Source: Solemya velesiana gill symbiont
GTDB lineage: Bacteria; Pseudomonadota; Gammaproteobacteria; Chromatiales; Chromatiaceae
Direction: 5' to 3'
Length of the DNA: 41,298 nucleotides
NCBI RefSeq assembly: GCF_002020805.1
Contig: NZ_MPRJ01000009.1
Span: forward strand, 1-41,298
In this document: one piece after another, positions 13,993 to 19,010 of the stretch
Layout: every line of letters starts with the position of its first letter
Numbering within the stretch: the first letter of the stretch is position 1
Translations under genes and position numbers: made by a program
The notes under the pieces: model-generated
The model's input: the letters and a program-made list of their open reading frames with translations, nothing else
Database searches by the model: none
Told to the model about the DNA's origin: nothing

Positions 13993-15066
13993 TTAGAAGC
14001 GGATGTGCGCAGAAGCGTTCAGGTTCGCACGACCGCCACGCCAGTTATCGATGTGGTACTTGGTGAACGGAAGACCGGTCTTCTCGAAGAAGCGGGGCCA
14101 ACCGATACGCTCTGCCCACTCGCCGATACGCTCCCAGTCCTTGGCATCTTCTTTGTAAGCAGCCAGGATCTTCTTGACGACATCGGAAACTTCAGGCCAA
14201 CGCGGGGGGTTGTTGGGAACGCCAGCAGCGACCAGCTTGTGGAAGGTCGGCTTGGAGCGGGCGTTGGAGTTCTTACCACCAACCCAGATCGCGAACTTGG
14301 AGTGCTCGGGATCGTTGATCTGCATGGGAGGGCAGGGAGGGAAGCAGGCACCACAGCAGATGCACTTCTTCTCGTCCACTTCCAGGGAAGGCTTGCCGTT
14401 AACAACCGCGGGGCGGATAGCAGCAACCGGGCAGCGAGCAACAACGGAAGGACGCTCACAAACGTTTGCAACCTGATCGTGGTCGATCTTCGGCGGCTTG
14501 GTGTGCTGGATGTTGATAGCGATATCACCCTGGCCACCGCAGTTGATCTGGCAGCAGGAGGTGGTGATACGTACGCGGTTAGGCATCTCTTCCTTGGTGA
14601 ACTCGTCGTACAGTTCATCCATCAGGGCCTTAACGGCACCGGAAGCGTCGGTACCGGGGATGTCGCAGTGCAGCCAACCCTGGGTGTGAGAGATCATGGA
14701 TACGGAGTTACCGGTACCACCGATGGGGAAACCTTCGGCGTTCAGCTTGTCGATCAGGGGCTGAACCTTGGACTCCTCGGAGACCATGTACTCAATGTTG
14801 GAACGGATAGTGAAACGAACGTAGCCTTCGGCAAATTCGTCAGCGATATCCATCAGCTTACGGATGGTGTAGACGTCCATCTGACGCTGGGTACCAGCGC
14901 GGACGGTCCAGATTTCGTCACCACTGTTTGCAACGTGGTGCAGAACGCCGGGACGGGGACGGTCGTGCCATTTCCAGTCGCCGTAGTTCTTCTTCAGTAC
15001 CGGGTGCAGGTACGCATCCATCTCCGGTACACCTGTTTCATCGGGCATGCGAGGTGCTTCAGCCAT
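13993..15066 (-). CDS. dsrB: DsrB, beta subunit of reverse dissimilatory sulfite reductase
   Basis: The 357-residue subunit has the family cysteine arrangement: Cys134, Cys171/172 and Cys176 around the [4Fe-4S]-siroheme site (TTSCCQINCGG), then a ferredoxin domain with Cys235/238/241/245 (CICCGACFPPC). With DsrA it forms the cytoplasmic alpha2beta2 enzyme that oxidises DsrC-bound sulfur to sulfite. The start is placed at ATG 15066, five bases after GGAGG; an upstream TTG at 15078 overlaps that ribosome binding site and is rejected. The length equals that of A. vinosum DsrB. Confidence 0.97.
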   Translation of the reverse strand: MAEAPRMPDETGVPEMDAYLHPVLKKNYGDWKWHDRPRPGVLHHVANSGDEIWTVRAGTQRQMDVYTIRKLMDIADEFAEGYVRFTIRSNIEYMVSEESKVQPLIDKLNAEGFPIGGTGNSVSMISHTQGWLHCDIPGTDASGAVKALMDELYDEFTKEEMPNRVRITTSCCQINCGGQGDIAINIQHTKPPKIDHDQVANVCERPSVVARCPVAAIRPAVVNGKPSLEVDEKKCICCGACFPPCPPMQINDPEHSKFAIWVGGKNSNARSKPTFHKLVAAGVPNNPPRWPEVSDVVKKILAAYKEDAKDWERIGEWAERIGWPRFFEKTGLPFTKYHIDNWRGGRANLNASAHIRF

Positions 15067-15102
15067 TGTTGCCTCCAATTCGCTTTAATTCTGTATTTCG
15101 CT

Positions 15103-15161: not shown

Positions 15162-16406
15162 TTACTGAGCAGCCTGGCGCTCGTTCCACTTGGCAGCTTC
15201 TTCGTCCCAGTCGTCGGTACGAACGTAGGGGTTCATACGAGGACGTTCGATCATGTTGGGATCGATTTCGATGCCGATACCTTCCAGGAAGTTGGTCAGA
15301 CCGATACGCTCGATCATCTCACCGGTGCGCTCGTGCTCCAGTGCGTTCTCGGCGAAGAAGTCCAGAACCTCGGTAGCCAGCTCTTCCAGCCACTCGAAAT
15401 CTTCGTCGGTTTCCAGCTTGTGGAAAGGAACGATCACGGTACCCATGAGGTCACCGATCTTCAGGGTACGCTTACCACCGATCAGGATGGATACACCCTT
15501 GTCATCACCGGGGGACAGGGCCTTGGTCATGACGTTGATGCAGTGCATGCAGCGTACGCAGTTCTTGTTGTCTACATCCAGGGTGTCGTCGTCGTTCAGA
15601 GACAGGGCCTGGGTGGGGCAACGGGTGATTACGTTGTCGATGATGTACTTGCGACCACGGGTCTCAACGTAGTTCTTGACCTCGACCTGGTCGACCTTCA
15701 TGTCGTCGCGCCAGGTACCGATGGTAGCGAAGTCAGCACGCTGGATGGAGTTCATGCAGTCGTTGGGGCAACCGGAAACCTTATATTTCATCTTATAAGG
15801 CAGGGCCGGACGGTGCAGATCATCCAGAGCGTTGTTAACCAGGGTGCGCATGGTGCGGCCTTCGTCGAAGCAGGACTGCTCGCAGCGTGCAGCACCAACA
15901 CAGGACATACCGGTACGAACAGCAGGACCGGCGCCACCCATGTCAAAGCCCATCTCGTTAAGCTCGTCGAATGCAGGCTGGACTTTATCGGTGGTGCAGC
16001 CCTGGAACATGATGTCGCCGGACTGGCCGTGGAAAGCGATCAGGCCGGAACCGTGCTCTTCCCAGATGTCGCAGAACTTGCGGATGGTGTTGGTATCGTA
16101 GTGCATGCCTGGAGGAGGCATGATACGCAGGGTGTGGAACTCAGCCGCTTCAGGGTAGAGTGCCTTGTCGTTCTCGTCCTTCAGTTCGGTGAAGCGGGGG
16201 ATTACACCACCACCGTAACCGATAACACCGACGGTACCACCTTTCCAGTAGCCCTTACGGGTTTCGTAGGAGGTCTCCAGCTGCCCCATCAGGTCGACCA
16301 TCATGTCGTTGTCGTTGGCCAGGCGCTTGAGACCGGTTACAAAGCTGGGCCAAGGACCGCTCTCCAACTGGTCAAGCATGGGGGTATCATGCATCGGTTT
16401 TGCCAT
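15162..16406 (-). CDS. dsrA: DsrA, alpha subunit of reverse dissimilatory sulfite reductase
   Basis: This 414-residue subunit carries the catalytic [4Fe-4S]-siroheme motif (Cys169, Cys175, Cys179 in CVGAARCEQSC, with Cys213 and Cys217 in SGCPNDC) and a ferredoxin domain (Cys263 and Cys283/286/289, CVRCMHC). It is the first gene of the cluster, with GGGAG 8 bases before ATG 16406. DsrAB in sulfur oxidisers runs in the oxidative direction, releasing sulfite in the cytoplasm. A 477-base divergent region lies upstream. Confidence 0.97.
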   Translation of the reverse strand: MAKPMHDTPMLDQLESGPWPSFVTGLKRLANDNDMMVDLMGQLETSYETRKGYWKGGTVGVIGYGGGVIPRFTELKDENDKALYPEAAEFHTLRIMPPPGMHYDTNTIRKFCDIWEEHGSGLIAFHGQSGDIMFQGCTTDKVQPAFDELNEMGFDMGGAGPAVRTGMSCVGAARCEQSCFDEGRTMRTLVNNALDDLHRPALPYKMKYKVSGCPNDCMNSIQRADFATIGTWRDDMKVDQVEVKNYVETRGRKYIIDNVITRCPTQALSLNDDDTLDVDNKNCVRCMHCINVMTKALSPGDDKGVSILIGGKRTLKIGDLMGTVIVPFHKLETDEDFEWLEELATEVLDFFAENALEHERTGEMIERIGLTNFLEGIGIEIDPNMIERPRMNPYVRTDDWDEEAAKWNERQAAQ

Positions 16407-16883
16407 CAGTTATTCTCCCATTGGTCTAATTCATGGGTTCCCGACGTCTTGCTGGCCTTGGGGCTCTTGGAACGTCTGAAACCCTGGATTCGCAAACCTT
16501 TCTTGAGGACAGTCTGAAACAGACAGCCTTTTTCAACATGCCGGGCATTTTAGGAGCTACTTATGCACGGCAATATCCCGCTAATGGGGGGGTAGGGGTA
16601 TATTTGAGCATATCCACAAAGGGATATATAATAATACGCTAACATATGAAATTTGAACTTTTCTAATTTTATTACTTCTTATAAATCATATAGATAAAAC
16701 ACCTCCTTTCGATATTTTCTGAAAATTCCCACCTAAACCGATGGTGCATTGCAATATCAAAAACTGCGATTTCGACTTGCATTACCCTGAAAATTTGAGG
16801 TTCAATACACAAAAGCCTAGTGGAATACTCGGTTATTCCCCGGCTATATATAAAAGGGTGTGAATTTAACGAGGTAGAGACAG
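16407..16883. promoter_or_regulatory. Divergent control region between dsrA and the Cas6-like operon
   Basis: No gene is visible in these 477 bases. The central part (about 16600-16850) is clearly AT-richer than the flanking genes. It should hold the dsrA promoter on the minus strand and the promoter for the 16884-18466 operon on the plus strand. I find TATTAT/TATATA-like stretches (minus strand around 16625-16635; plus strand around 16847-16856) but no -35 element at good spacing, so I do not name promoters. An inverted pair ATATCC (16610-16615) and GGATAT (16622-16627) with a further direct ATATCC near 16573 could be an operator. The proximal 150 bases before dsrA are GC-rich and form a long leader. 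Confidence 0.5.
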
Positions 16884-17060
16884 ATGCTGCTGCTCAGCGA
16901 GGTGCTCATTCAGGCGCCTGACATCGACTCTTTCGAGTCATTGGTCGAACATATCAAGGAACACCGGAAAACAGAGATGTTTTTCCGTATCGACGTAAAA
17001 CCCCAGTTTAGCGATACACCCGAAGACTGGGAAGATCGGCTTGAAGCAGCTTTTACCTAA
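16884..17060 (+). CDS. Small protein of 58 residues, unknown, first gene of the Cas6-like operon
   Basis: ATG 16884 opens a 58-codon frame ending in TAA at 17060, preceded by GAGGTAGAGA. The product (MLLLSEVLIQAPDIDSF..., acidic, with a FFRIDVKP strand near residues 34-41) has no signal peptide or cysteine. I do not recognise it. Its codon use resembles the next gene, which begins 15 bases later with its own AGGAATAGAG ribosome site, so the two are likely cotranslated. Evidence for coding is positional: a proper start signal, a full frame and tight operon spacing. Confidence 0.6.
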   Translation: MLLLSEVLIQAPDIDSFESLVEHIKEHRKTEMFFRIDVKPQFSDTPEDWEDRLEAAFT

Positions 17061-17075
17061 TTCAGGAATAGAGAA

Positions 17076-17786
17076 GTGAAGTACCTACAGACCGAAGCCC
17101 TGCTGGAAGGCAACGAGTGCTCCAATGATGCCATACCTTCCGAACAGGCCGTAAAACTGCATCTTCAGGAACTGCAGGAACAGATCGATGCCCTGCCTGC
17201 CGACGCCCCGGTGGACGAGCGGCTGCAGCTCACCCTTGACCGCGGCTACGGCCTGCTCGAGATCAACGCCTTCGAGGATGCCTGGAAGATCGCCCGAGAG
17301 TCGTTCGACCAGGCCATTCAAGCCGAACAGTGGCTGCGCGCTGTTGAAGCCTGCGACATCATGTTCCAGTCGGAACAGCCAGACACCCTGAAGGCCCTGG
17401 CCCAGGGTGTCTGGCTCGGCGTCACCTTCCCCATCGATCCGGAACTGAGCGTCGCGATGCTTCAGCACCTTGTGGACGAGAGCGTCGACCGCTCCGACGG
17501 TGCAGCCGTGGCAGCGGCCACCGCCTGCTACCTGGTGGATCTGCGCGCAGAGGAAAAACAGCGGGAAGACCTCCAATTCTTCACCATACAGCTGCTCGGC
17601 CAGGTGGCCCGCAAGCACAGCCAGGTGGAAGAGCAGGAGATTTTCGATTTCTGGATGGAGCAGCTCGAACTCAAGGAACCCGAAAAGTTCCTGCCACGAC
17701 TGGCCAAGGTGCTGGATGTCATCAGCAACGGCGAGTGGTGGTATGATCGTGATGAGCTTCGCGGGAAAATTCCCGAAGAGGCCTAG
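17076..17786 (+). CDS. Alpha-helical protein of unknown function, TPR-like, upstream of Cas6-like gene
   Basis: The 236-residue protein starts at GTG 17076 after AGGAATAGAG. It is almost entirely helical by composition, leucine- and glutamate-rich, with repeating helix pairs (for example RGYGLLEINAFEDAWKIA and WLRAVEACDIMFQ) that look like tetratricopeptide-type units around residues 55-110, though I cannot assign repeats firmly. A cysteine pattern or catalytic motif is absent. It ends 20 bases before the Cas6-like gene, so the products probably work together; a scaffold or partner role is inference only. Confidence 0.75.
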   Translation: MKYLQTEALLEGNECSNDAIPSEQAVKLHLQELQEQIDALPADAPVDERLQLTLDRGYGLLEINAFEDAWKIARESFDQAIQAEQWLRAVEACDIMFQSEQPDTLKALAQGVWLGVTFPIDPELSVAMLQHLVDESVDRSDGAAVAAATACYLVDLRAEEKQREDLQFFTIQLLGQVARKHSQVEEQEIFDFWMEQLELKEPEKFLPRLAKVLDVISNGEWWYDRDELRGKIPEEA

Positions 17787-17806
17787 GCTACATAGAGGCA
17801 ACCAAG

Positions 17807-18466
17807 ATGTACTGGCAGGAAGAGAGCAACGAAGAACAGTTTGTTGTGCCGGAAGATGTGGTTGATCTGGCATTCAGAATCGACTGCCCCACCCTCCCCG
17901 TGGACCACGCCTGGGCGCTTTCCGAAGCGATCGGTGCGGAGCTTCCCTGGTTCAGCGAAGAGGCCCAGACCGGGCTGCACATCGTCCACGTCGCCGACAC
18001 CGGCAACGGCTGGGAGCGCCCCACCGACGCAGACGACCTGCTCTACCTTTCAAGGCGCACCCCGTTGGTGCTGCGCCTGCCCCGACACCGCACCCAGGAC
18101 GCCCACGATCTGTGCGGCAAGACCCTGAGTATCGACGGCCACAGTATGAAGGTGGGCAATCCCAAGCAACGCCCCCTTGCCATGACCGATATTCTCTACT
18201 CCCGCTACATAGTCTGCGATCCCAACTGGAGCGAAGACGACTTCATGGCCTGGGCGGTAGAAGAACTCAAGGGCATGCGCCTGAAATTCAAGAAGATACT
18301 CTGTGGCAAGGGCTTTGAGCTGAAACATCCTGACGGGCCGATCCAGACCCGCAGCCTGATGGTAGCCAACCTCTCTTACGAGGATGCCGTCTACCTGCAG
18401 GAGGAAGGGCTCGGCCCCCACCGGGAGATGGGCTGTGGACTTTTCATTCCCCAGAAGAGTTTTTAA
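17807..18466 (+). CDS. Stand-alone Cas6-family protein (MYXAN-type Cas6/Cmx6-like)
   Basis: This 219-residue protein has the hallmarks of the Cas6/Cmx6 family of RAMP-fold RNA-binding endoribonucleases. The N-terminal part (VVDLAFRIDCPTLPVDHAWAL) carries His34 where Cas6 enzymes place their active-site histidine. The middle has NGWERP and YLSRRTPLVLRLP, and the C-terminus has the glycine-rich loop GLGPHREMGCG (201-211) followed by FIPQK, the Cas6 G-loop signature. Cas6 normally cuts CRISPR repeat RNA, but no array, Cas1, Cas2, Cas3 or Cascade gene is present in the window. It is the third gene of an operon transcribed away from dsrA, with AGAGG before ATG 17807. Whether it is nucleolytic is unknown; binding or processing a cellular RNA is the simplest idea. 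Confidence 0.75.
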   Translation: MYWQEESNEEQFVVPEDVVDLAFRIDCPTLPVDHAWALSEAIGAELPWFSEEAQTGLHIVHVADTGNGWERPTDADDLLYLSRRTPLVLRLPRHRTQDAHDLCGKTLSIDGHSMKVGNPKQRPLAMTDILYSRYIVCDPNWSEDDFMAWAVEELKGMRLKFKKILCGKGFELKHPDGPIQTRSLMVANLSYEDAVYLQEEGLGPHREMGCGLFIPQKSF

Positions 18467-18619: not shown

Positions 18620-18964
18620 ATGTCCTATGAAGTAAACGATAACACCCTTGAAACCACCGCCAACGGCTACCTGGTAAACCAGGAAGACTGGAGTGAAGAT
18701 GTCGCAGCGGCCATCGCTGAAGCCGAAGGTATCACCCTGTCTGACAAGGCCTGGGATATCATCAACTTCCTGCGCGACGAGTACTTCAACAACGGCGGCA
18801 ACCAGCCCAACGAGCGCAACATGGTCAAGCACTTCAAGGGTGTGTGGACCGACCTGGACAAGGTCGACACCAAGGCACTCTACGTGCACTTCCCCATGGG
18901 ACCCGCCAAGCAGGCCAGTAAGGTTGCCGGTCTGCCCGAGACCAAGCGTAAGGGCGGCTACTAA
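18620..18964 (+). CDS. DsrC/TusE-family protein lacking both redox cysteines (RspA-like)
   Basis: The 114-residue protein is clearly homologous to DsrC (GYLVN at 16-20, WDIINFLRDEY at 45-55, FPMGPAKQA near 91-99). The two conserved cysteines are missing: position 100 is serine in KQASKVAG where DsrC has KQACRFAG, and the C-terminus ends KGGY instead of a penultimate cysteine. It therefore cannot carry sulfur. DsrC-family proteins without these cysteines have been grouped as regulatory sulfur-related proteins (RspA). AGGAG lies 7 bases upstream of ATG, and a strong terminator follows. It lies between the Cas6-like operon and the unknown genes downstream. Confidence 0.88.
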   Translation: MSYEVNDNTLETTANGYLVNQEDWSEDVAAAIAEAEGITLSDKAWDIINFLRDEYFNNGGNQPNERNMVKHFKGVWTDLDKVDTKALYVHFPMGPAKQASKVAGLPETKRKGGY

Positions 18965-18984: not shown

Positions 18985-19010
18985 AAAAAAAGGGGCTCGG
19001 CCCCTTTTTT
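18985..19010 (+). terminator. Intrinsic terminator after the DsrC-like gene
   Basis: GGGGC and GCCCC arms with loop TCG are flanked by seven A and followed by six T, 20 bases past the stop at 18964. It closes the Cas6-like/DsrC-like transcription unit. Confidence 0.85.

Follow-up and report, generated by a model that had tools for sequence, protein, structure and literature searches.

CRISPR components that serve outside adaptive defence have been described, such as CreTA and the type IV and transposon exaptations (PMC9458426, PMC6452270). These cases keep a Cascade-type effector, whereas only Cas6 remains in the dsr-linked system described here (PMC9458426, PMC6452270). The Cas6/Cmx6 proteins of type I-MYXAN/I-B CRISPR-Cas (TIGR02807, PF09559) resemble the protein of this locus in full-length homology, in a DH motif with His34 and in a Gly-rich C-terminal loop. 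However, the dsr-linked homologue has neither cas neighbours nor an array, occurs in single copy, contains an extra SGNGWxRP stretch and forms its own clade. The closest solved relative is the Cas6 of a type I-B CRISPR-associated transposon (PDB 8fcj), which differs in carrying Asn at the His34 position, in lacking the SGNGWxRP stretch and in being a partner of CRISPR-guided transposition. The next gene downstream also has a described counterpart: it encodes a DsrC homologue without C-terminal cysteines, like the cysteine-free DsrC-family proteins of the 'RspA' type. Here, the cysteine-free DsrC is consistently found beside a Cas6 homologue. The preliminary description of this DNA regarded a role in sulfur oxidation as undescribed for the Cas6 family, and no paper linking Cas6 with dsr was found in the open-access literature. 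The Cas6-family protein fixed beside the reverse-Dsr genes is a real system that has apparently not been described before. Rather than a rare remnant, it seems to be an exaptation of Cas6 alone that is fixed throughout a bacterial class and tied to a pathway central to biogeochemistry.

The window, that is, the whole stretch of DNA that was analysed (41,298 nucleotides), comes from the Solemya velesiana gill symbiont. The features of the locus are:

13993-15078: dsrB, follows dsrA
15162..16406, minus strand: dsrA, divergent from the p58-p236-cas6 module
16611..16626, strand not applicable: palindrome TATCCACAAAGGGATA, conserved upstream of dsrA; candidate operator (or 5' hairpin)
16884..17060, plus strand: p58 gene, 58 aa, first in the operon
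17076..17786, plus strand: p236 gene, 236 aa, GTG start, second in the operon
17807..18466, plus strand: stand-alone Cas6/Cmx6 homologue, 219 aa, third in the operon
18620..18964, plus strand: cysteine-free DsrC-like gene downstream of cas6; the protein ends KRKGGY
18986..19010, strand not applicable: bidirectional terminator-like stem-loop that closes the dsrC-like gene

The p58, p236 and cas6 genes lie on one strand with intergenic gaps of 15 and 20 nt. The cysteine-free DsrC gene starts 153 nt after cas6, and a strong terminator-like stem lies at its end. This layout agrees with the preliminary description, which had placed two uncharacterised genes (58 and 236 residues) ahead of cas6, a divergent dsrA beside them and a cysteine-free DsrC downstream; the last two points were confirmed by the ORF positions, the PF04358 match and the absence of Cys. 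Near the p58 start, an IscR-type-box-like motif (AGTA-TTT-ACTcGGTtATT, window 16818-16840) was also observed, which is conserved in the Sedimenticola/Thiodiazotropha group.

The cas6 homologue is fixed in the gammaproteobacterial reverse-Dsr sulfur oxidisers, being present in virtually all of the dsr-bearing ones sampled, and the reverse-Dsr pathway gains a new conserved component. Among 55 relatives, a single-copy cas6 was found in all 37 genomes with dsrA (as strong or fragmentary matches), and the 18 genomes without dsrA were all without cas6. The class sample comprised 274 gammaproteobacterial genomes, with dsrA called at E<=1e-20. Here cas6 was present in 91 (exactly one copy each) and dsrA in 94; both were found in 87 and neither in 176. 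The Fisher p of the association is 2e-57 over these 274 genomes, of which the related ones are not independent. Ten of the 11 discordant genomes (four with cas6 only, seven with dsrA only) are explained by contig ends or a very short contig. In all four cas6-only genomes, sequence is missing where dsrA would be expected, as the module is either at the end of its contig or on a very short one. In 5/7 dsrA-only genomes the contig breaks on the 5' side of dsrA or close to it, p58 and a p236 fragment were found at a contig end in the dsrA-only genome G156, and G243 is the sole exception without a contig-end explanation. In the phylum-wide sample, four additional genomes of the class that have dsrA contain a shorter version of cas6. 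Profile searches of the same sample found cas6 in 0/48 dsrA-bearing genomes of other classes, so the Dsr pathway itself does not need cas6.

Judged by sequence, the product of 17807-18466 is a full-length member of the Cas6/Cmx6 protein family. It matches PF09559 with 199.4 bits (cut-off 26.7; E 7.5e-59) and the NCBIfam model cas6_cmx6 (TIGR02807) with 107.6 bits (curated cut-off 98.85), and six PADLOC Cas6 models match it as well. TIGR02807 is also matched by 50/50 members of the stand-alone family alignment (E<=0.01). Comparison with the 8fcj Cas6 gave E 5e-9 for the single sequence and 1e-22 with the family profile (residues 15-216), and on this sequence similarity the protein may have the double RRM/ferredoxin-like RAMP fold. 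The Cas6 features that had been named at the outset, His34 and the GLGPHREMGCG loop, are present and conserved. Among 151 distinct proteins, a few of which may be CRISPR-linked controls, His34 at the Cas6 active-site position (DH motif) is kept in 150; R90 and G211 are invariant (151/151); G201, G203, G209 and G211 of the C-terminal Gly-rich loop are each found in at least 148; and R84 and K163 are kept nearly everywhere. Tyr replaces His34 in one beta-type protein. In the alignment, the SGNGWxRP stretch is solo-specific, being absent from the CRISPR-linked Cmx6 and most beta-type sequences. The median dN/dS of cas6 in close pairs is 0.107, versus 0.03 for dsrA and 0.04-0.08 for the neighbours. 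In the tree, all 57 stand-alone sequences stand apart from six CRISPR-linked/plasmid Cmx6 (support 0.80). The stand-alone proteins form a clade of their own, a domesticated non-CRISPR Cas6 lineage that is functionally tied to oxidative Dsr. The plasmid matches are cyanobacterial Cmx6 with 25-30% identity. No viral relative was found in IMG/VR, INPHARED or PHROGs, and a reading as viral cargo was rejected for this reason.

Distribution, single copy, linkage and constraint show that this Cas6 is a non-CRISPR protein tied to Dsr. As to its role, we lean slightly towards a domesticated Cas6/Cmx6 without CRISPR service, fixed as a reverse-Dsr accessory in Gammaproteobacteria, which would bind and probably cleave an RNA element with its partners. 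The conservation of His34, R90, G211, K163 and the Gly loop, together with the dN/dS of about 0.11, points to RNA binding, probably with cleavage, as the best interpretation. The homologue may still bind a short RNA element, which would probably be cleaved via the conserved His34. Such action would be post-transcriptional, with sulfur-oxidation mRNAs or a small RNA as the target. The p58, the TPR-like p236 and the cysteine-free DsrC homologue might be partners or sensors that tie Cas6 activity to the sulfur state. More tentatively, and with somewhat less than an even chance in our view, a domesticated Cas6 endoribonuclease, p58, the TPR protein and a cysteine-free DsrC sensor would form a dedicated post-transcriptional switch of reverse-Dsr, with Cas6 alone retained from CRISPR.

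Alternatively, the Cas6 fold might act without RNA cleavage: in a small complex with p58, p236 and the DsrC-like protein, it would be a structural subunit, or one that binds RNA or a ligand, and this complex would assemble or gate the Dsr machinery. A mere scaffold would have no need of His34, R84, R90, K163 and the Gly-rich loop, which are near-universal, and several lineages keep Cas6 with no p58 or p236 found beside it. This alternative is therefore rather unlikely, although it is consistent with the co-occurrence of Cas6 with a TPR-like scaffold and with a DsrC devoid of cysteines, the one homologue without His34, the solo-specific SGNGWxRP stretch and a dN/dS above that of the Dsr proteins.

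More than 574 relatives were found in GTDB genomes, and neighbourhoods were taken from the best 80 named loci, which belong to Sedimenticola, Thiodiazotropha, Lamellibrachia symbionts, Thiohalomonas, Thiogranum, Thiotrichales and Acidiferrobacterales. In these loci, p58 lies upstream of cas6 in 78/80 and p236 is present in 55/80; where p236 is missing, p58 usually abuts cas6. A DsrC-like gene follows cas6 in most of the 80. Of the 60 named loci whose upstream sequence was long enough, 57 have dsrA within 10 kb of cas6. The three-gene set beside dsrA that the preliminary description proposed to search for was thus recovered with respect to p58, but about one named locus in three has no p236. 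Nor is the set an invariant unit: p58 stands beside alphaproteobacterial dsrA without Cas6, and in the beta-type loci Cas6 is accompanied by a DsrC-family gene, whereas p58 was not found.

Copies away from dsrA were also identified. Marithrix, Parabeggiatoa and Thiomargarita keep the p58-cas6 pair, with no dsrA on the fetched stretch. In G142 (complete, 1.45 Mb, cas1-free), cas6 (C1:528790) and dsrA (C1:486685) are about 40 kb apart. Retention of cas6 when unlinked from dsrA speaks for a functional connection with the pathway and against mere linkage. The gene also persists in genomes of 1.0-1.4 Mb; this persistence, with the unlinked copy of the cas1-free G142, indicates that neither CRISPR service nor hitchhiking explains cas6. 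By sequence recognition of the gene names, the solo cas6 is divergent from rnc-era-recO in G142 and G258, two small genomes of one family (L148, L150), and neighbours rapZ in Marithrix (L080). These neighbours would fit a general role in RNA metabolism, alongside RNase III/Era or RapZ, the dsr tie then being due to the shared ancestry of sulfur oxidisers; however, dsr-less kin are without cas6, as seen in 18/18 relatives and in the 176 class genomes that have neither gene, and we consider such a role very unlikely.

The gene belongs to the Cas6 protein family, but it lies outside any CRISPR-Cas system. No CRISPR repeat and no Rfam RNA were found in the window. The cas3, cas5, cas7 and cas8 genes and the CRISPR array of a type I-MYXAN system were not found there either, in agreement with the preliminary description. 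Elsewhere in the source genome, where cas genes would have spoken against that description, Cas1 (also expected of type I-MYXAN) was not found and cas3_core gave sub-cut-off helicase matches only. Since this genome is 84% complete, its freedom from CRISPR is provisional when taken alone; complete relatives agree with it. Across genomes, CRISPR status was judged by Cas1 matches, and the repeat search covered the window. A Cas1 match was found in 40 of the 91 cas6 carriers and none in 51, independent of cas6 (p=0.11). Cas1-free carriers on one contig and 99-100% complete are G052, G067, G077, G113, G115, G142 and G165, and those of 1.0-1.1 Mb without Cas1 are G072, G174 and G287. Conservation with dsr in CRISPR-free genomes, a test named in advance, was therefore strongly positive (both genes in 87 genomes, of 91 with cas6 and 94 with dsrA; 51/91 carriers without Cas1). 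The stand-alone cas6 beside dsr, including that of complete cas1-free genomes, was probably recruited from CRISPR immunity. Processing of crRNA in trans, for arrays elsewhere in the genomes, would account for the Cas6 scores in PF09559, TIGR02807 and PADLOC and for the 40 carriers with Cas1. However, the 51 others include the 1.0-1.1 Mb genomes, and Cas1 is independent of cas6 whereas dsrA is almost perfectly tied to it; this highly improbable explanation was rejected on the Cas1 independence. The chance that cas6 is a functionless relic of an ancestral dsr locus, carried along by the linkage seen in 57/60 loci, is close to nil, and hitchhiking was rejected because cas6 is under purifying selection, has invariant residues and is retained both in unlinked positions and in reduced genomes. 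A Cas6 annotation in a sulfur oxidiser, animal symbionts included, is no evidence of CRISPR immunity.

Among the plasmid Cmx6 controls, five of six are in proper cas operons, and the sixth (Gloeobacter) is not. On the Gloeobacter morelensis plasmid pGMOR1 (NZ_CP063846.1, L141), the Cmx6-like gene is surrounded by uncharacterised genes and genes for PAPS-reductase-family proteins, and no cas gene is annotated. It is possibly another non-CRISPR Cas6.

The strongest conserved non-coding element is a palindrome, TATCC-N6-GGATA, which in the window precedes the dsrA start by about 200 nt. It overlaps sigma-70-like promoter hexamers, and a similar second box lies about 35 bp nearer dsrA. Three exact copies exist in the genome (2.55 Mb): upstream of dsrA, upstream of tusA and inside soxA. 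The tusA copy (L218:1084-1099), 87 nt upstream of tusA (tusA-dsrE2), is the sole other intergenic exact copy. The palindrome tracks dsrA, not the module. None was found near the module where the module is away from dsrA, nor, with two substitutions allowed, in the alpha-type and beta-type loci examined. A covariation scan of 14 aligned loci on both strands, in which high z-scores elsewhere were ignored because of tiny energies, found no convincing conserved RNA hairpin and mainly highlighted the palindrome upstream of dsrA. A 5' hairpin bound by Cas6 is a less likely reading of the palindrome. As a test of hairpin against operator, the G.U/A.C asymmetry in the dsrA sense was counted among 48 distinct boxes, from related sequences; it is 21 versus 10, which fits either. 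The absence of the palindrome from the alpha and beta loci examined and from the unlinked modules, and its presence before tusA-dsrE2, favour an operator, and it looks more like a candidate sulfur-oxidation DNA operator than a Cas6 substrate. An RNA module recruited from CRISPR biology for sulfur transcripts had been proposed; the recruitment of a Cas6-family protein is upheld, but the transcript side lacks a convincing conserved RNA hairpin apart from this operator-like palindrome.

The companion proteins were also analysed. The 18620-18964 product matches the DsrC/TusE fold profile PF04358 (E 1.7e-31); it has no cysteine at all, and hence not the C-terminal sulfur-carrying cysteine(s) of DsrC/TusE. 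Of the DsrC-like proteins downstream of cas6, 67/69 are without Cys in the last 25 residues. Profile searches with p58 and p236 found no described family above cut-off. The p236 model (pLDDT 91) is all-helical, with no Foldseek match at E<=0.001; its best structural matches are TPR chains (Z up to 12.7, rmsd 4.3 over 170 residues), which suggests that p236 is TPR-like. The AlphaFold model of p58 (pLDDT 87) had no fold match, and the protein contains the motif FFR(I/M)DVKPPFxDTPENWEDRLEAAF. Among five alphaproteobacterial dsrA loci viewed in detail, one of them a short contig, p58 was found in four. In two alpha-type loci resolved ORF by ORF, p58 has a dioxygenase gene before it and no Cas6 after it. 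Outside the Sedimenticola group, a TauD/TfdA-like dioxygenase gene (~300 aa, HTDGYY motif) was observed between dsrA and p58 (L067, L071, L077, L084, L092, L101, L106, L109). The alphaproteobacterial dsr loci L204 and L208 likewise have a TauD/TfdA-like dioxygenase, and there p58, without Cas6, is followed by a protein of ~80 aa.
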